Below the pieces are notes generated by a model. It was given only the letters and a program-made list of their open reading frames with translations. It did no database searches and was not told the origin of the DNA. 64,000 nucleotides of DNA from contig NZ_CP028922.1 of the NCBI RefSeq assembly GCF_003060825.1, positions 3,021,001 to 3,085,000 of the forward strand, written 5' to 3'. Origin of the DNA: Paenibacillus sp. CAA11 (GTDB lineage Bacteria > Bacillota > Bacilli > Paenibacillales > Paenibacillaceae). Of the stretch, positions 17,750 to 41,906 are shown one piece after another. How positions within the stretch are numbered: position 1 is the stretch's first letter; the number at the start of each line of letters is the position of its first letter. Position numbers and translations under genes: made by a program.

Positions 17750-17835
17750 TGCCGAGGACCGGGATCGAACCGGTACGGTAGTCACCTACCGCAGGATTTT
17801 AAGTCCTGTGCGTCTGCCAATTCCGCCACCCCGGC
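17750..17835 (-). tRNA. tRNA-Leu (anticodon TAA)
   Basis: An 86-nt cloverleaf: acceptor stem GCCGGGG with CCTCGGC (one G-U), discriminator A, long class II variable arm, T-loop GGTTCGATCCC and anticodon TAA in the loop ACTTAAAAT. No CCA is encoded. The 5' half is part of the phage attachment repeat, so in the lysogen this 5' half and the promoter above it come from the phage. Confidence 0.95.
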
Positions 17836-26165: not shown

Positions 26166-26714
26166 TTAATCGTTGCTGTACTCGTTTGTGATCGTAAATC
26201 CGTGAATTGTATTCGCGCCGGTATTTGTGAGCACGATAACCGGTTGAGCCGGCACATCTGCGTCTGACGAGATGACTACGGATTCCGGCGAGCGGGTTAT
26301 CGTAACTTCGCGCACCTGCTCGGGACCGCTCGGCCACGGGTCATTCATGCGCAGGCTAACGTCCAATAGCCGACTGCCGATCTGCCCGTCCAACGCGAGA
26401 GTCCCCGTGTACACCGCCCGATAATACTTGCCAGGCATATCGCTAAACTCAAGCGTTAGCTCGCCGCGCTTCGCGTTAAAGATGCGAGCCAGCTTCGCAA
26501 GTGTGCGGTGAAACTCCTCGGGGGCTACCGTGATCTCTAGCGTTAAGTCGAGCTGTCGCGTAGAGTATGTGCTCCCAAAATCGACCACGCCGTCAGTGCC
26601 CGCGATCTTAACCGTGTTCTCTTCCTCCGCCGGCAAGACGGGAATGTGACGCTCGAATAGCGAGGCGCCCAGCGTTGATAACCACGTCCCATTTACACAA
26701 ACGTCATAGATCAT
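26166..26714 (-). CDS. Distal tail protein (Dit)
   Basis: A 182-residue protein. The N-terminal 125 residues follow Sipho_tail proteins (LFERHIPVLPAEEENTVKI; GTDGVVDFGSTYSTRQLDLT), which form the ring linking tail tube and baseplate. The last 50 residues begin the second domain (VIVLTNTGANTIHGFTI). It overlaps the tape-measure stop by 4 bp, the standard order in siphophages. Confidence 0.82.
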   Translation of the reverse strand: MIYDVCVNGTWLSTLGASLFERHIPVLPAEEENTVKIAGTDGVVDFGSTYSTRQLDLTLEITVAPEEFHRTLAKLARIFNAKRGELTLEFSDMPGKYYRAVYTGTLALDGQIGSRLLDVSLRMNDPWPSGPEQVREVTITRSPESVVISSDADVPAQPVIVLTNTGANTIHGFTITNEYSND

Positions 26715-29700
26715 CGCGTCTTCACTCCTTGCGCCTGAATTCTCGCAGCTACACGGGCCCGCTCATCGACAATGGCGCGCCCTGTATCAGGGTCCGCGGC
26801 CTCAACGCTACCGATAGACATATCGATATGGTTCGTGATCTGCTGCGTTGGCTGTGCGCTCGGCGCTAGTCCGGAGTGAGCCGCCGTTGCTCCGCCATTT
26901 AGCAGGCCCCAAAGCGCCGCCTGCTGCTGCGGATTTAGGACGATCTCTCCCGCGTGTGCCTGGACCATAACTGCCGAACCGCTCGCTCCTTGCACGATTC
27001 CGCCGGTTGCAAAGGACTGCAGCTTCCCGGTATCCTTCGTAATTCCGTACTGTTTGCGAATCTCAGCGTTCCGTACCTCAAGCCGCGCCATCTCCGCTTT
27101 ATTGCCGCTCGCCTTAGCCGCGTCCCATGCGTCCTTATTCGAGTTATATTCCGCAAGGTCAGCGTCTCGCCCCGAAAGAGATGCGTTAGCAACTACGGCC
27201 ATCTTAGCGTTATACTGCGCTAAGAAATTATCGAGATCCGCGAGAATCTGAGCGTTAGCTGTTGCGCTAGAGCTTACGCGAAAGGCCGCAATACCGTCCT
27301 CAATCGATTTGATGTTACCGGAGTAACTATCGAATGCTTCGGCCAGTGCGGTGTATTGCGCCTCAGCCGCAGCCTTTTCGTTTTCAAATGCCGTCTCTTG
27401 CTCGGACTTCTCGTCCTGGATCGCTTTCTTCTGCGATTCCAATTCGCGTTTGCGGAGATCACGGTCATGCTCAAGCCTCATCCGCTCGATCTCTTTTATC
27501 GTATCCTCGCGCTCTTGGATGCCCTCCGGCCCGACTGCGCTTGCCAGTAAGTCAACACGTGCCTGCTTTTCCCGGAGCTGCGTTTCGTAGTCAGCGTCCG
27601 TATTAAGCTCGGCCTCTTTCGCGAGGAGATCGTCAATCGCCTTGATGCGCGCATCATAGTCGGCCAGCGCCGCCTTCTTCCGTTCCTCAATCGCAGCAAG
27701 TTCCGCTTTCTTCGCATCCTCGATCGAGGACTTCTGCGTCTTAACGAGGTCCTCCGCAAGTTTCTCCGATTTCTGCGTCAGGTCCTTGCGCGCCCGGTAG
27801 ACCTCCTCGTCGGCCTTCTTATATAGTTCAGAGTAACTTTTGTATAGCTCGGAGTCCTTTTTGTAAAGCTCAGATTCCTTCTTGTAACGATCGCGAACCC
27901 GAGTCCAGGCCGCAAGCTTCGCAGCCGCGATGTCCTGTTCGGATTTGCCGGCGTCTTCCATGCGGCGCTCTTCCTTCTCGATCCACTCGGCCGAGGCTTC
28001 GTACTGACGCTTTGACTCGGCTACTAGCGCAGAGGTGAGTTCCTTACGCGCCTGATACAGCTTGTCGTCCGCATCTTTAAACTGATCGGAGGTTTTCGCG
28101 TATTTACTGCGCAGGCGAGTGTAAGCGTCAACTTTCGCCTTCGCCATCTCAACGTCCGTCTTATTCGCCTCTTCCATGCGTCGTTGGTCCTTATCGATCC
28201 ACGTTGTTGACAGTTCGTAGCGTGACTTAACGCTATCCTCCGTCAGCCGCTTAAGTTGTAGGTTGAGTGTGCGCTGATCCTCGATAGACTCCGCAAGGTA
28301 CTTTTTGTGACGGCCGCGTACCTTTTCGTACGCCTCGATTTGCTTATCGGCAGACCAATCGTACATGTCCGCCTGGTAACGTACCGTCGCAATGTCCGCG
28401 TCATACGCTTTCTTGCGGGCTTCTTCCGCCAATTCAGCCGCCGACTTTCCGGACTTTTTCGTCTTCTTCGCCTTGGCCCCGCCAGTCTTCGCTTTGCGCG
28501 TTTTAGACGGAGGCGTCAGGTCAATACTCGGAAGCTTAGCGCCTCCTCCCTTGTAGCCAGCGTCTAAACTCGCTAGGGCGCGTTTGACCGCTTGCTCCGC
28601 CTGATTGTTAGCCGCGAGTTTTTGCTCTAAATCAAATAGCTCGCCTTGGTCCGTTTTGAGCGTTGACTTGTGGTTTTTTCCGGCAGGCGCGATAATCGAT
28701 GCCCCGGCTTTAGCGCCAGCCAGCGTAGACATCACATTTATCAACTGCTGATAGTTCTGGATTTGCGCCATGATCTCGGAGCGCTGGGCCTCCGTCGTCT
28801 TCTGTAGGTTCGTTAGATAGCCGCGCATACTCTTCGCAGATTGTTCGTAAAAATTACGGTCGGCCTGTATTTGCTTCTGAACCATGTCGACTTCGCCCGC
28901 CCGCATTGTCGTCGCTGTGCCGAGTTTGTCGTTAAGATCCGGATATTGCTTGCGGAGTTGATCGGTGATGCTAACGAGTTCCTGCTGCTGCGCGGCGCTA
29001 GTGTTCTGCGCACCCGAGAGTTCCCGGTACCGTTTAACGAGTCCCTCCATCGTGGAGATTTTATCGTTTTTAGCGGCCAGGTCATCGATTTCGGCGCGCT
29101 TCATTTCGAGGAGTGCCGGAACGGATTGTTCAGCCGCCTTCCCCATTTCGGCGAGCTTCTTCTGCGCTTCGGGCGCAGAGTCATAGCCGAGTTCTCGCAG
29201 CTTTTCGTCGAGCCCCTCTATTCCCTCTTTTAGCACGTCTATCTCTGAAACAACCCCGTAATTATCACCTTTGCTACCCTGGGCTTCCAGCTCGTTCAAT
29301 CTTTCTTGGAATTTAGTCCGCTGATCTAACACCTTCGCAAGCTCGTCGTGCTTAGCCTTCAATTCTTTAAGCTCCTGGACGCTACGACTAAGCGGCGACT
29401 TATTGAGCGTATCGTTTAGGGCTTTCTGTGCATCGTCGTGTTTTTTAACCGCTTCAGCAGCTTCCCTATTCTTAGCAACAATCGCTGATATTCCGGCAGC
29501 TAACGCACCCACCGCAAGTGATATCGCGCCAATAACCGGAATACTCGCACTGAACGTCGCCATTTGGACCCCGGCTGCTGCAAGCGTGGTTTGTAGCGTA
29601 GCGAAGGCCGCCCGAAGCGCCACAACTGCAGTAATAGCTCCGGCGACAAGCGGCGTAATTGTTGCGAAGATTACGATCGCATTCCGCATCTCAGGGTTCA

Positions 29701-31357
29701 TTTGCGAGAAGCCGGATAGCAGCTTCGTTATACCCTCCGCCGCTCCCCTTATCGCAGGGGCAAACGTGTCTCCGACGGTAATGCCTACACCCTCTAGCGC
29801 CGATTTCATTTCCGTTATCGAGCCTTTCAGCGTATCCATCTGTACGCCGGCAACCCGCTCAGCCGTGCCGCCTGCGTTTTTGAGCGACTCCGTATATTGG
29901 TCGAGTGTGCCTTGCCCGTTTTGAATGAGCGTGATAAATCCGGATGCTGCCTCACGTCCTACGAGCGTAGCTGCAACGTCCGCCTGCTGCGCCTGTGTTA
30001 AGCGCCCCCATACAGATGTTAGTTGTCCGATCAAGTTCGAGAGTGGCACGATATTGCCTGAGCTGTCTTTAATATTGACGCCGAGTCTCTCCATATAAAA
30101 CGCGGCTTCTTTAGACGGGGAAGCGAGCGCGAGAAGAATTGCGCGAAGTTGCGTGCCAGCCATTTCGCCTTTAATACCTGCGTTACTGAGTTCGCCGACG
30201 GCTGCCGTTGCTTCCTCAATCGATATACCCATCGATGCCGCTACCGGAGCCACATATTTCATCGCATAACCTAAGTCCGTAACGTCCGCGTTTGTGTCGA
30301 TTGAGGATTTAGCGAGGACGTCTACAACTCGGCTCGTCTCTTCCGCTTGCAGCCCGAATCCACGCAAAATACTCGATGAGATATCCGCTGTTGTTGCGAG
30401 GTCGACCTGCCCTGCGGCCGCAAGCGATAAGACGCCAGGCATGGCCGCGATAATTTCGTTCGTCTTAAAGCCGGCCTGAGCGAGCAAAGCCTGCGCGTCA
30501 GCACTTTGAGCCGCAGTATATGCGGTCGTGGCACCTAACTGTAGCGCTTGGTTTTTTAACCGCTCAAACTCGTCACCCGTTGCCTCTGAGATCGCTTTGA
30601 CGTTAGCCATCGATTGCTCAAAGTCAGCGGAGGTTTTAACAGCTTTGGTAATAGCCACGCCCATCGCTACTGCCAGTCCCGTGTACGCAACTCCTAGCGC
30701 CTTAACCTCGTTAGATACCCGTCTTGATGACGTTGCATTACGCTCTAATTCCTTCGTTACTTTATCGATATCTGCGCTGCTCGCGCCAAGACGCTTCATC
30801 TCCGCCGTTACCTCAGCGAGTTCCCGCTTCAACACTTCCGGGTTCGCCTGCTTCAACGACTTCTCAATTGCCGCTATTTGAGATGAGCTTGCGCCTAGCT
30901 GCCGTAGACTGTCTCCGATTTGCTTAAAATTAGCGGAGGTGATTTGCGCAGACTTTCCGGACTTAGCAAGCGAATCCTCAAGCGCCCATATTTGCTTTGC
31001 CGTTTTGTCTGAGGTCGCGGTAAGCCGGAGTAACGCCCCTTCCGTATTCGCAATTTGAGCCTCTAGCTTACTGCGTTTCTGCGCGTCAAACGTTGTATCG
31101 TAAGATGCTTTAAGCTCCGCTAATTTCTTCCGCTGGACCTCAATACGCGAGTTAACGTTGTCCAATACCGACGTTAGCTGCGTAATTTTACTACGAGTCT
31201 CCGCCATTTGAGCTAATCCGGCACTTGCCTGTCTGCCGGCAACTCCTAGCTCGGCCGTTTTCGCCTTGGCCCGCTCAACCCCCGCCTCATACCCGCTTAT
31301 GTCCGCGGTAATCTTGGCGCGTATACCCCCTACGTCTACTGCTTCGATCTTCGTCAC
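26711..31357 (-). CDS. Tail tape measure protein
   Basis: A 1548-residue protein. The first 640 residues hold coiled coils and the conserved tape-measure core (EYATGDEFERLKNQALQLGA-like region, YTAAQSADAQALLAQAGFKT, EEATAAVGELSNAGIKGEMA). Two hydrophobic stretches follow (about 560-640), then long charged repeats: units of roughly 110 residues with EWIEKEERRMEDAGKSEQDI and DKLYQARKELTSALVAESKR recur. Length sets tail length, roughly 230 nm at 0.15 nm per residue if that rule holds. It starts with GTG 31357. Confidence 0.95.
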   Translation of the reverse strand: MTKIEAVDVGGIRAKITADISGYEAGVERAKAKTAELGVAGRQASAGLAQMAETRSKITQLTSVLDNVNSRIEVQRKKLAELKASYDTTFDAQKRSKLEAQIANTEGALLRLTATSDKTAKQIWALEDSLAKSGKSAQITSANFKQIGDSLRQLGASSSQIAAIEKSLKQANPEVLKRELAEVTAEMKRLGASSADIDKVTKELERNATSSRRVSNEVKALGVAYTGLAVAMGVAITKAVKTSADFEQSMANVKAISEATGDEFERLKNQALQLGATTAYTAAQSADAQALLAQAGFKTNEIIAAMPGVLSLAAAGQVDLATTADISSSILRGFGLQAEETSRVVDVLAKSSIDTNADVTDLGYAMKYVAPVAASMGISIEEATAAVGELSNAGIKGEMAGTQLRAILLALASPSKEAAFYMERLGVNIKDSSGNIVPLSNLIGQLTSVWGRLTQAQQADVAATLVGREAASGFITLIQNGQGTLDQYTESLKNAGGTAERVAGVQMDTLKGSITEMKSALEGVGITVGDTFAPAIRGAAEGITKLLSGFSQMNPEMRNAIVIFATITPLVAGAITAVVALRAAFATLQTTLAAAGVQMATFSASIPVIGAISLAVGALAAGISAIVAKNREAAEAVKKHDDAQKALNDTLNKSPLSRSVQELKELKAKHDELAKVLDQRTKFQERLNELEAQGSKGDNYGVVSEIDVLKEGIEGLDEKLRELGYDSAPEAQKKLAEMGKAAEQSVPALLEMKRAEIDDLAAKNDKISTMEGLVKRYRELSGAQNTSAAQQQELVSITDQLRKQYPDLNDKLGTATTMRAGEVDMVQKQIQADRNFYEQSAKSMRGYLTNLQKTTEAQRSEIMAQIQNYQQLINVMSTLAGAKAGASIIAPAGKNHKSTLKTDQGELFDLEQKLAANNQAEQAVKRALASLDAGYKGGGAKLPSIDLTPPSKTRKAKTGGAKAKKTKKSGKSAAELAEEARKKAYDADIATVRYQADMYDWSADKQIEAYEKVRGRHKKYLAESIEDQRTLNLQLKRLTEDSVKSRYELSTTWIDKDQRRMEEANKTDVEMAKAKVDAYTRLRSKYAKTSDQFKDADDKLYQARKELTSALVAESKRQYEASAEWIEKEERRMEDAGKSEQDIAAAKLAAWTRVRDRYKKESELYKKDSELYKSYSELYKKADEEVYRARKDLTQKSEKLAEDLVKTQKSSIEDAKKAELAAIEERKKAALADYDARIKAIDDLLAKEAELNTDADYETQLREKQARVDLLASAVGPEGIQEREDTIKEIERMRLEHDRDLRKRELESQKKAIQDEKSEQETAFENEKAAAEAQYTALAEAFDSYSGNIKSIEDGIAAFRVSSSATANAQILADLDNFLAQYNAKMAVVANASLSGRDADLAEYNSNKDAWDAAKASGNKAEMARLEVRNAEIRKQYGITKDTGKLQSFATGGIVQGASGSAVMVQAHAGEIVLNPQQQAALWGLLNGGATAAHSGLAPSAQPTQQITNHIDMSIGSVEAADPDTGRAIVDERARVAARIQAQGVKTR

Positions 31358-35643: not shown

Positions 35644-36345
35644 TTATAATCCAAGTTCTCGCTTTAATTTCGCGTATGCTGCTTGATCCTCGATTCGCCC
35701 GCTCTTACGCGCCTTGTTGGCAGCTTCCGCGAGCAACTGTTCCTTTGTTTTGTCCGCCGAAGTTGCAGTACCACCGCTAGGCCCGCCGATCGGCTTCGGC
35801 TTGTCCGGCGCAGTTTCCACGAGGTACGGATTCGCCTCGACGAGCGCCTTAATCGCGTCCTCTACGCCTTGGGGGTTGCCGTCATCACCGACGGTCGCAC
35901 CGCTCAAGTCCGCCAATTTTAACGCAGCCGCAACGCGGTCAGCCGGAATCTTATGTTCGCGGGCCAACGCTCTAAACTCTGCGTTAATCAATCGTTGATT
36001 TGCCGCTGTAAGCGCGCCGTTCTTAGCCTCTTCGGCCTCTTGCGCTTTCTTACGCGCCTCCTCAAGCTCGGCCTGCAGACGCTCGGTTTCGGTAAGTTCC
36101 GCCTTCTTGCGGGCTTCCTCCGCCTTCTCTAAATCGGTGAGCTTCGCCTTGATATCGTCGTAATCCGCAAACTTTTCGACCTTCTTGCGCTCCCTTGCGA
36201 TTCGATCCGCGATAATCTGGTCGAGTTCCGCCTGGGTAAACGTCTTTTCCGGTTCTGGCGTCGGTGCCGGATCTGGTTCCGGATCGCCCTCCGCGAACAA
36301 TTGCAAATCTAACGGATATCTATAGCGAGTATTTTCGATTTTCAT
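35644..36345 (-). CDS. Capsid scaffolding protein (DUF4355 type)
   Basis: A 233-residue acidic, helical protein: a start typical of the family (RYRYPLDLQLFAEGDPEPDP), a coiled coil (KLTDLEKAEEARKKAELTET) and a short C-terminal helix-turn-helix (RIEDQAAYAKLKRELGL) that binds the capsid protein. It acts inside the prohead and leaves before DNA packaging. AGGAAAC-type site precedes the ATG. Confidence 0.85.
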   Translation of the reverse strand: MKIENTRYRYPLDLQLFAEGDPEPDPAPTPEPEKTFTQAELDQIIADRIARERKKVEKFADYDDIKAKLTDLEKAEEARKKAELTETERLQAELEEARKKAQEAEEAKNGALTAANQRLINAEFRALAREHKIPADRVAAALKLADLSGATVGDDGNPQGVEDAIKALVEANPYLVETAPDKPKPIGGPSGGTATSADKTKEQLLAEAANKARKSGRIEDQAAYAKLKRELGL

Positions 36346-36426
36346 TTCGTTTCCTCCCGTTTAAGGCCCGTCGGCCGTAGCGTTTAAACCGTAGAGTTTA
36401 ACGTCATACCACGTCTGGACAGCTAA

Positions 36427-37386
36427 TCAAGCCGCGAACAGTTCCGGAGATACTTGCGCACATTCCGGTATCTCGCGGCGAATGCGTTCTATGAGTTCCG
36501 CTGCCTCCGCACTCTTGCGTGGACGGTCGTAATAAGTGCGTACAAACTCAACGAACTTATTAAACTTCCGGTCCATGCGGATGCTTGCGTCAGTATTTCG
36601 GTACATTAAAAACAGCCAGCGCAATGCGTCTGACTGTGATACTGCATGAAGTGATATGAAATTGTCTCCGCGGAGGTCAGCCCTTACGCGTATACCCTCG
36701 GACAATAGCGTGTCGCGCATTTGTAACATAAACGACTCGGCAGCACCACAGAAAGAAGCGCGAACGGTTTGACTACGTGTGCTTATTGAAACGCACCCGT
36801 CACCTTCGAATGCCCCACGAATAAAGTCCCACAGAAACTCTTTCGGCAATTCGGGAAACTTAGCGTCGAACGTCTTATTCCTCTCAGGTATCCCTATACG
36901 GCGCAATGAAGCCACCATTTCTCGGTTACAGGTTCGGACTTCACATTTTCCGGGGTACTCGTACAGTGGTCCGTCAAACTCGAAGTGCTGCTTAATCTTT
37001 CTAACTACGTCTATATCCGCGGTCTGCAACCTTATGCCTACGTATTTATCACAAACGTGTCCATCTGTAATGATCCATCCGTACATCCACGCTGATGGCC
37101 TACTCCACTTGTCAAAAACAGCCCCATTTGATTTATATGTGTCTACTCTACCGACCTCACGCTTCCAGCCAAGACGTCGTACCAATCTACTAAATGTCGA
37201 AGAATCATAGGGGAACCCAATCTCCGCGATAATTTCTCCATACTTCATTTTCCTTGCATAGAAAAGGTCTCGGAATTGCTCTTTTGTGATAAAGTAACCT
37301 AAGTTGATCGAATGATTTGGGATTATTTGCCCTTTTGGACCTCGCCCGAGGTTCCACTCTGATAAGGATTTGTCTCCATACTGCAT
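36427..37386 (-). CDS. Free-standing LAGLIDADG homing endonuclease
   Basis: A 319-residue protein with two LAGLIDADG-type helices: SAWMYGWIITDGHV near residue 97 and LWDFIRGAFEGDGCV near residue 189; both acidic metal ligands (D and D) are present. The N-terminal 90 residues carry an HTH. It would cut a long DNA target in an uninfected or intron-less phage. It lies between the intron-split head gene and the scaffold gene, outside the intron. A 21-codon frame (36361-36426) after its stop ends NATADGP and may be the tail of a gene it interrupted. Confidence 0.85.
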   Translation of the reverse strand: MQYGDKSLSEWNLGRGPKGQIIPNHSINLGYFITKEQFRDLFYARKMKYGEIIAEIGFPYDSSTFSRLVRRLGWKREVGRVDTYKSNGAVFDKWSRPSAWMYGWIITDGHVCDKYVGIRLQTADIDVVRKIKQHFEFDGPLYEYPGKCEVRTCNREMVASLRRIGIPERNKTFDAKFPELPKEFLWDFIRGAFEGDGCVSISTRSQTVRASFCGAAESFMLQMRDTLLSEGIRVRADLRGDNFISLHAVSQSDALRWLFLMYRNTDASIRMDRKFNKFVEFVRTYYDRPRKSAEAAELIERIRREIPECAQVSPELFAA

Positions 37387-37477: not shown

Positions 37478-37501
37478 AAATAAAAACGCCTCAAAGGGCG
37501 T
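37478..37501 (-). terminator. Terminator after the head morphogenesis gene
   Basis: ACGCC and GGCGT around CTTTGA (which includes the stop codon), then TTTTTATTTTGCC on the minus strand. Confidence 0.75.
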
Positions 37502-38530
37502 TATCTGGATTTCTTACTGGAGTTATTACGTGGCGACATCTCGGCTCACGTTGTTGTCTCCGATTTCTCAGAGTGTCGGACTATCCCATGATCTTCGAAA
37601 AGACCCCGCTATTATAGTCTCTGCACGTCCCTGCCTACTTTGTGATTGCGGTATACGCGAGCAGGTTTCGATCAGGATTGCCGTAGCAAATGCCGTAGGG
37701 TTCCCTGAGTTTAAGCGGTTATTCGATGCGAGTCACCCCGCAAAGCCACCCGTTTGTCGATGGAATATTTCGCGTTGGTTTAAATCTCCGATGTAAGGGT
37801 AATCTCCTGGGGCATCTGGTACTAACTTAACGATGCGGCCTTCCCAGTTACGGCACGCATCCTTTGCGCCATGCCTTGATATTTGCCCGTAAAGCACATC
37901 CCGAGACAGTGCTTCGTTTATTGTTGCATCCCGATGAGCTGACATTAATTTGGTTCTGGTGACCATTTCTACATAATTTTGAGGCAACCAGCGCCGACCC
38001 GCGCTATCAATAATTCCGGTATTGACTGCGTTGCCTAGCGTTCGGCGCATCTGATCGAGGATGTCGCGGCTTATCGTCCGTCGGCCGTTAACACCCTTCG
38101 CGAGATTGGCACGAAATGAATCGGCCGTAGCCTGGCGAACGGCTGCGCGGACCTTACGTTCGACGTTCTGCGTTACCGCCAAGAGATCCGCCTGCGTATC
38201 CGCTATGGCCGACGCGACTAACTCCTTGTTGATGCGGTTAAACTTGACGATTTTCTCCGCTTCCTCAACCGTTTCAGCCACGCCGAGTCCAATAATTGCC
38301 TGCGTTACTCCGTCGCGGGCAGCCTTCGGGATGTTCGCTTCAACCCATGCGGCCGATTCCTCATTAAGCCCGGCGAGTATTTCCGCGACAGACTTAAGCG
38401 TGGCCTGTGCTTGTGCTCGACTCATTGCGGACAAGTCTAAGCGTTGCAGCTCCGCCAAGATTGCGGCCACCGCGTCTTTATATGCGGATACTAATCGGTC
38501 GATCTCGTGGTCATATGTTGGATCGACCAT
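37491..38530 (-). CDS. Head morphogenesis protein (Mu F / SPP1 gp7 type), split by a group I intron
   Basis: Exon 1 is 38530-37760 (257 codons, start ATG overlapping the portal stop) and exon 2 is 37544-37491 (17 codons plus stop). Without splicing the frame runs into the intron and stops after HRQTGGFAG. Spliced, the conserved end of the family is restored: REIFH joined to PRCRHVITPV. The CRNWEGR segment earlier supplies the paired cysteine. The protein is packaged with the head in low copy and helps DNA ejection or assembly. Spliced length 274 residues. Confidence 0.85.
37545..37759 (-). ncRNA. Group I intron (about 215 nt, no ORF)
   Basis: The RNA starts after ...UUCCAU and ends with G (GUGAG). 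P1 is CCAUC with GGUGG, placing a U-G pair at the 5' splice site. Core elements in order: TTAAACTCAGGGAACCC (P3/P4), ACGGCAATCCTGA (P4 side), GTGCAGAGACTATA (P7 5' strand) and GGGATAGTCCGACAC (P7 3' strand, P8). ACTAT and ATAGT form P7. Splicing joins codons in phase 0. Confidence 0.85.
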
Positions 38531-40092
38531 CACTCGTCAACCTCAGCGTTAAATATCGAGCCGTCTACGGTGCCACTAACGCGTTGCTCATCGTCGTCGA
38601 TTCGCTTAACTATTTCCTGCGCCTGAGCGTCGCTAACCCCGTCGAGTTCCTTGATCGCATCGGCTACGGATTGGGTCGGTTTGCCTCCGGTACGAATCTG
38701 CGCCACTTCTGCGGCTTCTTTAGGGTCCTGCGGAATGCCATCGCGCCAGTTGATTACGGGATAAATGGGTTCGTAAGGCTCGAAGCCTTCTACGTCTTTG
38801 TTCGCATAGTTTTCGAGCTGCATCGCCGTCCATATTGCGTCGCGAAACGCCCTATCTACGTGTGCTCGTATCCGGTTAACCTTCGCCAGGATCGGCATAA
38901 ACCGCGCTTTGATTGCGCCGGAATCCGTGTGTGATGTGCCTGTGCCGCCTTTATCGTTGGCAAGCGTTGTCCCGAACAACCATTGCGGCGTCTCACTCAT
39001 CTGGTAAACGAGTCCGAGAAGGATATCGAGCTCCTTAAAGGCCCCGTCAAGTTGCGAGTCCCACGTAAGATAGCCCGGCGTTGGGTCATCCTTACTTAAC
39101 GGGATGTAGCGGCCACCCCCGCGAACCTTATCCCCACCGTCGTCAAGGTCCTCCGGCCCATACATCCACGGGTCACTGTGTTTCCAAAGGATATAATCGA
39201 TCTGAGCCAGACGTTCGTTAATCGCACTAAGTACGCTCTCAAGCTTCTCGATCCCGCTAATGCCTTCCCAGCGGTCGTCTACCGATTTGTACGGGATATG
39301 GTGCGCAAGAATTCGAGCAGTTCCCGTTGCGACAACGTCTTCCTCGCGCCCGGTCGGCACTTTCTCGCCGATGGTGTAAACGGAAATGGGTACGTCCCAT
39401 TTCGTATTCACCGTTGGGGATTCGAGTTTATAGCGCTCATAGAGGATGTATCCGGGCACATGCCGTTCGACTACGAGATACGGCGTCGCGTTTACGTATC
39501 GGCCGAGTATCCAACGCTGCAGGATTCCGGTCGGTTCTTCAACCCACTCGACCCACGCAATATTCACGGCTTTAAATTTCTTCCGCGATCCGACGGACAA
39601 TTCCGGGAATACGATGTTAGCCGGAACAGCCTCGATGATAGGTTCCGGATTTGATTCAGGTGCCGTCAATCCGAGCGCCTCCGTCTCGCTAACGTCCGCT
39701 CGCGGTGCATAATACGTTTTGATCCACGAGTCGCCGCGATAGCCGCCACCGATAACAAGTTCGTGCATCATCTGCGTGATGTCGTTTTCCTCTACGATCG
39801 AGTCGAGACGTTCTTGCTCGCGCGTACCCGGACCCGTCCCCGCCTCAAATGTCGGAGGCTCGCCCGTCAGCAAGTCGGCCGGCTTCGTGAGCAAAATATC
39901 CATGAGGTTGACCGCGATAAATAACGTTTTGAGCTGTGCAGCGTGCGGCGTATCTTTAAGTAGCGATGTCGCCCGCTCGTATATTTCCGCATGGCGGCCG
40001 TCGAAAATAACGCGGCCCCGCTTGTACTTGGCTAATCGCGGCACATCTTCGGCCGGAGGATACTGAGCCCCGGTCTTAAATAACTTCGCCAA
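38530..40092 (-). CDS. Portal protein (SPP1 gp6-like)
   Basis: About 520 residues. I start at TTG 40092, six bases after AAGGAGGGG; the ATG at 40125 overlaps the terminase and has no good ribosome site. Conserved parts are NLMDILLTKPADLLTGEPP, ELVIGGGYRGDSWIKTYY, ETPQWLFGTTL and the helical ring segment (AKVNRIRAHVDRAFRDAIW). Twelve copies form the DNA channel at one capsid vertex. It overlaps the head morphogenesis gene (TGATG). Confidence 0.9.
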   Translation of the reverse strand: MAKLFKTGAQYPPAEDVPRLAKYKRGRVIFDGRHAEIYERATSLLKDTPHAAQLKTLFIAVNLMDILLTKPADLLTGEPPTFEAGTGPGTREQERLDSIVEENDITQMMHELVIGGGYRGDSWIKTYYAPRADVSETEALGLTAPESNPEPIIEAVPANIVFPELSVGSRKKFKAVNIAWVEWVEEPTGILQRWILGRYVNATPYLVVERHVPGYILYERYKLESPTVNTKWDVPISVYTIGEKVPTGREEDVVATGTARILAHHIPYKSVDDRWEGISGIEKLESVLSAINERLAQIDYILWKHSDPWMYGPEDLDDGGDKVRGGGRYIPLSKDDPTPGYLTWDSQLDGAFKELDILLGLVYQMSETPQWLFGTTLANDKGGTGTSHTDSGAIKARFMPILAKVNRIRAHVDRAFRDAIWTAMQLENYANKDVEGFEPYEPIYPVINWRDGIPQDPKEAAEVAQIRTGGKPTQSVADAIKELDGVSDAQAQEIVKRIDDDEQRVSGTVDGSIFNAEVDE

Positions 40093-40112
40093 TTCGCACC
40101 CCTCCTTCGTGT

Positions 40113-41906
40113 TTAATACGCCCATGCGGGCTTATTTCGGATCTTCTTCTTGTTCTTTTTCGCGATACTAACGGCCATTTCGAGAGCGTCCGGCAAGTCA
40201 TCGTGGGACCCGGTTGGGTACATTTCGAACTGCTCAAGCAGCAGCGCATGTTTCCGTGAAAACTGGATTGCACCGCTTTCGATATCTGGGGCCAGCGCCT
40301 CGATCCGTAGCTCTTTACGTGCCCGTTGGTGGATCTCTTTAACCCGCGTGTGCGCCGGATAGCCCGCAGCCCGGAGCGCATCCTTAAGCTGCATTACGAA
40401 AAACTCTTGCGCTGCCTGCGCCTCGGCTGCGATAGCACTCGGCTGATAGCGCAGGGCTTTTTCAACGATCACACGCAAAAAAGCGTCCGGCTTAATTCGT
40501 TCGCCGAACGCGTCAATCACGTATTTAGTTCCGGTTTCTTTATGGCGTGCGATGACCACGATTGCCGAATAGTCACCGCGTGTCTTACCCATCGCGAAGT
40601 CAACGCCCATGTAGACGTCAAAAACGTTGGTCGGGAGCGGATACTGCGTTAGGAGGTCGTGAAGCTTGGCGCTGGCGCTGTCCCAATACGTGAAAGTCTC
40701 CGGATTGAAGATCATCGACTCCTCGTCGACCGGATTGTTCATATACTCGGTGTTGAACGCTTTCGATCCGTCATCCCATTTTTTGCGCATCAACACCCAA
40801 ATCGACTGCGCCTCGGGCCATAATACGACAGCTCCCCGATCCATCTCCTCACGATTCAATTCGTAAAGCCGACGCGCCTCAGCGACTCGATCCTCTTTCG
40901 GGCGATCCGGGTCTTTGTATACGAGCCGGCACGCTTCCCATAGATCCATACGCTCAGGCCATTCAATAACTGCGCGATAGACTCGCGACTTAAAATCTGA
41001 CCGGTTGTACAACACGTCAACGAGCAGCGCTTCGTGATGGACCGTTGTTCCCATGTAGATAAACGCCGTACGTTTCCCTTTTGGGTCGCCCAGGGGCACG
41101 ACAGTTTGCGAAAACCAGTCCTTTAGCTTTGCTCGTTGTTCTGGAGTCGCTGCATTACCGCCTGGTCGTGCGTCTTCCAAATCGTCACATACAATCAAGT
41201 CTGGCCGTTTCTGATTCCAGTTACGCCCCCGAAGTGCTTGTCCGGTAGACGCTGCGTCGACCTTCGCGAGCAGCCGTTTAGTTCCATCATCTCGCGGTTC
41301 CCAAGCGATAAACTCCGAACTGTTATCGCGTGGGTTCTCTTGTTGCTTTGGGCTTAGTAATGGACCAAAATCCGCCCGCAATTTTGCGTTACTCTTTAGT
41401 TGGAGCGCGATCCAATCCAGGTTTGAGCTCGATACCGTAGGTGTCTCCGAAATGAGAATCGCATACCTCCGTTTGCGGTAACATATCTCGCGCAAAGGGG
41501 CGGCTTTTGATAAGTACGTTGATTTCGCGTGAGAACGGGGCGCCGCCACCGCGACCTTATCGTTAGTGTGAACGTTAGATATATCGTCTATTATCTCGGC
41601 AATCTCACGGTGAAATTCAGGCGCTTCCTCATACGTCACGATATCGAACCCGTCCCAGTTTCCGTCGTTGCCGGGATTACGCGCTTCCGAGAAGTATTCG
41701 AGCGCAAACTCGATCAGATTCGTTTCGCAGCGGTGAATCCGCGTTAGCCGTTCGTACTCCGTGAGCTGCGCGTCAATCTCCGCCGCGTCTTCCGGACTAA
41801 GTGCGGCGATATCTACGCCATCAAGTACGTCCAGTAACGCTGCGATTTCTGCGATCTTGGCTTCGCGTTCGGGGCGCGTTAGCCACTTGCCGCTGACCCA
41901 TGCGAT
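40113..41906 (-). CDS. terL: Terminase large subunit, probable AUC start
   Basis: The ATPase has Walker A-like APRSHAKST and Walker B LIVCDDLED; the nuclease domain has GVDFAMGKTRGDYSA and a distal GSHDDLPDAL. The first GTG (41639) lies inside the conserved protein: a further 89 codons (SGKWLTRPEREAKI, FALEYFSEARNPGNDG) are open above it. The frame reaches AGGAGG at 41915-41920 with no ATG, GTG or TTG; ATC at 41906 is eight bases away and ATA at 41912 two bases. The only nearby ATG is out of frame. It packages and cuts phage DNA. Confidence 0.85.
   Translation of the reverse strand: MAWVSGKWLTRPEREAKIAEIAALLDVLDGVDIAALSPEDAAEIDAQLTEYERLTRIHRCETNLIEFALEYFSEARNPGNDGNWDGFDIVTYEEAPEFHREIAEIIDDISNVHTNDKVAVAAPRSHAKSTYLSKAAPLREICYRKRRYAILISETPTVSSSNLDWIALQLKSNAKLRADFGPLLSPKQQENPRDNSSEFIAWEPRDDGTKRLLAKVDAASTGQALRGRNWNQKRPDLIVCDDLEDARPGGNAATPEQRAKLKDWFSQTVVPLGDPKGKRTAFIYMGTTVHHEALLVDVLYNRSDFKSRVYRAVIEWPERMDLWEACRLVYKDPDRPKEDRVAEARRLYELNREEMDRGAVVLWPEAQSIWVLMRKKWDDGSKAFNTEYMNNPVDEESMIFNPETFTYWDSASAKLHDLLTQYPLPTNVFDVYMGVDFAMGKTRGDYSAIVVIARHKETGTKYVIDAFGERIKPDAFLRVIVEKALRYQPSAIAAEAQAAQEFFVMQLKDALRAAGYPAHTRVKEIHQRARKELRIEALAPDIESGAIQFSRKHALLLEQFEMYPTGSHDDLPDALEMAVSIAKKNKKKIRNKPAWAY

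Follow-up and report, generated by a model that had tools for sequence, protein, structure and literature searches.

A small ORF-less group I intron in the minor capsid gene of a Paenibacillus-type prophage, next to a free-standing LAGLIDADG endonuclease gene

Organization of the locus

The window is the whole stretch of Paenibacillus sp. CAA11 DNA analysed here, 64,000 nucleotides in length. It contains a prophage of Paenibacillus type whose minor capsid gene, with a portal gene (38530-40125) on one side and a scaffold gene (35644-36345) on the other, is interrupted by an intron. The features of the interrupted gene and of the adjoining sequence are listed below; loci used for comparison carry L numbers and genomes G numbers.

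37760..38533, minus strand: exon 1 of the gene for the minor capsid protein (a minor head protein, SPP1 gp7/MuF-like), assigned from PF06152, phrog_4611 and relatives
37545..37759, minus strand: ORF-less group I intron, 215 nt, phase 0, assigned from RF00028, same-site homologues and covariation
37491..37544, minus strand: exon 2, PRCRHVITPVRNPDNAL and stop, assigned from the joined frame and alignment to the uninterrupted L010
37485..37502, minus strand: terminator-like hairpin with T-rich tail, overlapping the minor capsid stop codon, same in L010
37426..37476, minus strand: leader of the endonuclease gene, structured and homologous to the RF02996 (int-alpA) matches of L118, L123 and L222
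36420..37475, minus strand: homing-endonuclease cassette of 1056 bp (2-nt ambiguity at its ends), missing in L010 and L009
36427..37386, minus strand: free-standing LAGLIDADG homing endonuclease gene, 319 aa, two motifs, assigned from PF14528, phrog_4645 and alignments

Exon 1 starts with GTG at 38533 or ATG at 38530, and matches PF06152 (Phage_min_cap2; E 1.2e-10) in Pfam and phrog_4611 (E 3e-47) in PHROGs. A sequence-only reading of this DNA had placed the gene in the Mu F-like family; the Pfam match, however, is to Phage_min_cap2, and Mu F is not listed by name for exon 1. Exon 1 measures 774 nt, which puts the intron in phase 0, and exon 2 measures 54 nt. Joining 38533-37760 to 37544-37491 on the minus strand yields an open frame of 275 aa, in which GDLNQREIFH runs directly into PRCRHVITPVRNPDNAL and the stop. 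The unspliced frame hits a stop codon 9 codons into the intron, giving a truncated protein that ends in FHRQTGGFAG, and a full-length minor capsid protein requires a spliced transcript. In a related prophage, L014 (G068), the minor capsid gene carries one in-frame TAG, possibly through decay or misreading.

The endonuclease cassette starts immediately past the T-run of the terminator-like hairpin, which could reduce expression of the downstream capsid genes or of the endonuclease. A larger intron enclosing the endonuclease ORF was considered and rejected, as exon 2 ends with a stop codon and terminator ahead of that ORF, exactly as in the intronless L010.

Fold and boundaries of the intron

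Helices of the intron are as follows.

37746..37763, minus strand: P1, 5' exon CCAU plus C paired with the internal guide sequence (IGS) GGUGG, U.G at the 5' splice site (drawn core)
37728..37741, minus strand: P2 with GUGA tetraloop, five of six pairs changed on both sides (drawn core)
37606..37718, minus strand: P3, CCGCU/AGCGG (drawn core, covariation)
37579..37619, minus strand: P7, GACUAU/AUAGUC (RF00028 match, drawn core, covariation)
37604-37591, minus strand: P8, inside P7 (drawn core, covariation)
37558..37573, minus strand: P9 with GAAA tetraloop (drawn core, covariation)

The segment 37545-37759 (minus strand) is a group I intron; its insertion point directly follows the histidine codon in FHPxC(R/K)H, a conserved motif. 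The Rfam model RF00028 matches 37557-37769 (minus strand) over its full length (model positions 1-253) with 39.5 bits and an E value of 4.9e-8; this score falls under the gathering score of 50, and the intron is unlisted at that threshold. It is nevertheless the sole credible match in the 4.9-Mb genome, the runner-up having an E value of 0.86. All of P1-P10 can be drawn, including the U.G splice-site pair and a CGG/CCG P10, a pairing that is only partial in L118 and L161. Mismatches in the core comprise one G.G in P4 of three homologues and a C.C in P5.

Alignment alone leaves the intron boundary ambiguous by one base, as a C stands at both ends. The ambiguity is settled by four homologous introns together with the rule that the 5' exon ends in U, here 37760, and the intron in G, here 37545. 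The folding energy of the intron is no better than that of shuffled sequences (z 0.01); the evidence therefore comes from the covariance model, comparative covariation and empty sites, and not from stability.

The sequence-only reading had proposed that removal of 37545-37759 joins REIFH to PRCRHVITPV in phase 0, which proved correct to the base. Of the elements it had picked out, P1, P4, P7 and a terminal G, every one recurs in the complete drawing, and its placement of the intron in a conserved motif of the minor capsid gene agrees with ours. The check it had suggested, a search with the Rfam group I model, gave the match described above, and its overall call of a group I intron is borne out by that match, by exact empty sites, by four further alleles at the same site and by compensatory changes.

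Uninterrupted relatives and same-site alleles

Exact empty sites occur in L010, L121, L126 and others. Aligned with L010, from the same genus, the window breaks exactly at the intron, continues through 69 aligned bases to the terminator T-run, breaks again for 1056 bases and then resumes. Likewise, L123 differs from its close relatives L121 and L126 by precisely an intron and a cassette insert. About 155 other complete relatives checked, closely related empty sites included, are all uninterrupted. One set, of phages, Paenibacillaceae prophages and IMG/VR contigs, is unbroken across FHPxC(R/K)H or a variant motif. So are 102 of 107 loci in a wider scan that partly overlaps with this set, and the remaining five all carry the intron.

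Introns at the identical site occur in at least four other phages: L118 (190 nt, 58.2 bits against RF00028), L123/L125 (213 nt, 40.7 bits), L161/L162 (191 nt, 49.5 bits) and L222 (216 nt, 46.9 bits). The L118 intron exceeds the gathering score, with an E value of 1e-12. Splicing restores FHPNCRH or FHPKCRH in each of the four, and the conserved frame of exon 2 in five of five alleles, L222 having been read from sequence. These alleles were found only through host protein scans and not by DNA similarity: a search of phage records and of 296 related genomes with the DNA of the window's intron gave only chance-level short matches outside the window's own genome. A P7/P9 pattern search led to unrelated sub-threshold introns, and aligning the intron by MAFFT with tape-measure introns, which are unrelated to it, gave a result of unusable quality.

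Covariation was assessed on an alignment of the five alleles with a hand-drawn core and 500 shuffles. Standard pairs make up 97.6% of the core, and 12 pairs are changed on both sides (five in P2, four in P8 and one each in P3, P6 and P9). None of the 500 shuffles reached either value, and sliding the pairing partners abolished the signal. The sub-threshold Rfam score and the fold energy z of about 0 are what a chance insertion, intein, frameshift or sequencing artefact could appeal to, but the same-site homologues on independent contigs, the E value of 1e-12 in L118 and the covariation make any such account next to negligible; an intein and a frameshift are further ruled out by the stops within the insert.

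The core is intact and covaries, and the protein needs exon 2; we infer from this that the intron is almost certainly spliced in the cell. Splicing could instead be lost or regulated, with the truncated protein ending in FHRQTGGFAG also functional. The homologues do share a similar unspliced tail, RQTGGFxx, though the conserved IGS predicts this anyway. Loss of splicing would bring decay, whereas every core helix is kept with compensatory changes and the frame of exon 2 is conserved in all five alleles, so that we judge this reading very improbable.

Across the intron alleles, the introns are 78-90% identical and the adjoining exons 60-69%. That the introns are more alike than the exons fits lateral movement, to which RNA constraint could add.

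The endonuclease cassette

The description of the intron as tiny and ORF-less stands in that no ORF lies within its 215 nt, but it overlooked the adjoining LAGLIDADG gene (36427-37386), which makes a mobile pair of collaborating elements the likelier picture, in place of a tiny intron left stranded. The frame of this gene is intact, and the cassette is inserted 70 bp downstream of the intron, in the gap directly 5' of a conserved RNA element that precedes the scaffold gene. The 319-aa product matches PF14528 over its cut-off (E 2.7e-6) and phrog_4645 (E 1e-30), and alignments show the motif aspartates D108 and D196 to be invariant among its relatives. By its motifs, the protein is a member of the LAGLIDADG family, with predicted site-specific DNA cleavage.

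The relatives came from tblastn and from MuF loci; single-query scans for the endonuclease found nothing, and a PDB sequence search gave one spurious match, to a large toxin protein (E 0.006). In the annotations of Providencia phage PR1 and Brevibacillus phage Jenst, the relative is flanked by pieces of a DNA polymerase gene, with weak RF00028 matches there, and one in an Alicyclobacillus phage abuts strong RF00028 matches. Cassettes at the MuF locus encode LAGLIDADG enzymes in the window, L123, L151 and L222, and Endo VII-like enzymes (phrog_1035) in L118 and L030. The leader is near-identical in five of these six copies, the window's included, and diverged in L030.

Against the endonuclease leaders, RF02996 (int-alpA) scores 43.1 bits in L118 (L118:3534-3598), over the gathering score, and nearly reaches it in L222 (L222:1890-1954) and L123 (L123:3031-3095). 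Inner-stem pairs of the leader RNA covary, and a Shine-Dalgarno sequence lies within its second hairpin. In related genomes, int-alpA precedes GIY-YIG-like (L226), glycosyltransferase-like (L227) and HTH (L228) genes, as identified from their sequences. RNA of this type may lead accessory genes of phages more generally.

The conserved RNA element beyond the cassette (36353-36420, minus strand) lies directly upstream of the scaffold gene RBS. It occurs once in the window and is present in the pre-scaffold gap of most relatives (L003-L061). It consists of an H-type pseudoknot (GNC..ACGNNN..GNC-NTTAAAC(T)-NNNCGG), then a covarying 4-bp hairpin and then TTAAACGGGAGG. Its loop-to-tail pairing takes 20 distinct sequence combinations over 46 loci, related loci being counted singly, and is 92.6% paired vs 67% in partner shuffles, none of 5000 of which reached 92.6%. 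A comparison with Rfam gave no match. The element is a candidate translational operator for the scaffold and capsid genes. Elsewhere in the window lies a tRNA gene (17750-17835, minus strand; 54.8 bits), by sequence probably tRNA-Leu with anticodon UAA, which could be a prophage attachment site or phage-borne.

Association of intron and cassette

Three of the four other intron alleles have a cassette, one of them, in L118, of the unrelated Endo VII type. Counted in clusters at 90% protein identity, the cassette accompanies 4/5 intron-bearing vs 2/71 intronless clusters (Fisher p 6e-5, not phylogeny-corrected). The two are not obligate partners, because L161/L162 have only the intron, and L151 and L030 only an endonuclease. 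The enzyme type is also swapped while the intron stays (LAGLIDADG in the window, L123 and L222; Endo VII-like in L118). Between L118 and L127, exon identity drops from about 95% to 65% towards the intron, a fall that resembles a co-conversion tract; none is seen in L123 vs L121 and L126.

Taken jointly, the best explanation is very probably a group I intron that splices itself, sits behind the His codon of FHP.C.H, is optional and moves horizontally. We lean, by a small degree, towards its having been moved by collaborative homing with the neighbouring endonuclease. The free-standing enzyme would cut the intron-insertion site in intronless phages, the presence of the intron would protect the donor's own copy, and repair would carry intron and endonuclease gene across together.

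Alternatively, the intron could be real and spliced, with the endonuclease independent of it and homing intronlessly into the gap between terminator and scaffold leader; the intron would then be a passenger, or have spread by reverse splicing or simple phage recombination. This account, which we hold to be somewhat doubtful, draws on the cassettes found in the same gap without a MuF intron (L151, L030), on the one intron without a cassette, on the precision of the insertion site just 5' of the conserved RNA element, and on the frequent clustering of homing endonuclease genes of different classes near one locus (PMC10448857). It is countered by the strong intron-cassette association and by L151, whose intron site deviates as a cleavage-resistant allele could. 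This phage (L151:3247-3434) has a LAGLIDADG cassette and leader, no intron and an unusual would-be site, FHPCCAH, possibly such a resistant allele.

Within the collaborative homing that we prefer, LAGLIDADG and Endo VII-like enzymes might be interchangeable behind the same RNA leader, each mobilising the same ORF-less intron at one site. We put this forward tentatively, from the distribution of alleles; if true, it would describe a collaborative homing system with interchangeable enzymes.

Comparison with known systems

Many phages carry group I introns. As in the window, further ones interrupt late genes, in the same phages or in related ones: in the terL gene of L030 (598-826), and in tape-measure genes of L097, L099, L101-L104, L106 and L107. 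These differ from the window's intron in their host genes, and several contain internal GIY-YIG or HNH genes. The window's own tape-measure gene (26711-31357) is uninterrupted. Three of the host genomes (G017, G089 and G115) have a MuF gene without interruption and, a few kb further downstream, a group I intron.

Virion-gene introns are known from the LittleE capsid gene and the BAKA tail gene (PMC3706429) and from tape-measure genes (PMC10448857), and the intron-bearing genes of Bastillevirinae serve mostly nucleic-acid metabolism or are terminase genes (PMC11878797). The intron of mycobacteriophage BAKA is likewise small (265 bp) and ORF-less (PMC3706429). Like it and other RF00028 introns, the window's intron has a U ending exon 1, a G ending the intron, a P1-P10 core and no ORF; like BAKA's, it interrupts a virion gene and is missing from close relatives. 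Unlike BAKA's, it is 215 nt long (190-216 in relatives), sits in a minor capsid gene and adjoins a free-standing endonuclease gene, and its splicing is predicted. A group I intron at the minor-capsid FHPxC motif was not found in the literature searched, which is weak evidence of absence; the window's intron adds one more member to a known class, at a site unreported in those papers.

In collaborative homing, reviewed in PMC3984707, an enzyme encoded by a free-standing gene cleaves the intronless allele where the intron would insert, and the donor is shielded by its intron, according to the account of Zeng et al. 2009 given in PMC6083498. Precedents are F-CphI and the psbA intron of cyanophage S-PM2 (PMC6083498) and the terminase cases of T3/T7-like phages and ICP1 (PMC10448857). 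The window's LAGLIDADG enzyme belongs, with two conserved motifs, to the same family as the phrog_4645 enzymes of PR1 and Jenst, whose genes lie between DNA polymerase pieces, whereas its own gene lies outside the intron. The MuF locus has alleles in every state (intron with LAGLIDADG, intron with Endo VII, intron alone, endonuclease alone and neither), a range that makes both the partnering of ORF-less introns with free-standing endonucleases and the origin of composite mobile introns directly testable. As with F-CphI and psbA, an ORF-less intron is joined by a free-standing endonuclease gene adjoining the interrupted gene, both are missing in relatives, and the L118 enzyme shares the Endo VII-type catalytic family of F-CphI. 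In contrast to F-CphI, the window's enzyme is of the LAGLIDADG type, two unrelated families alternate here, and cleavage at the intron site is putative; if it holds, the alternation of LAGLIDADG with Endo VII enzymes next to a single intron would be a new form of collaborative homing.
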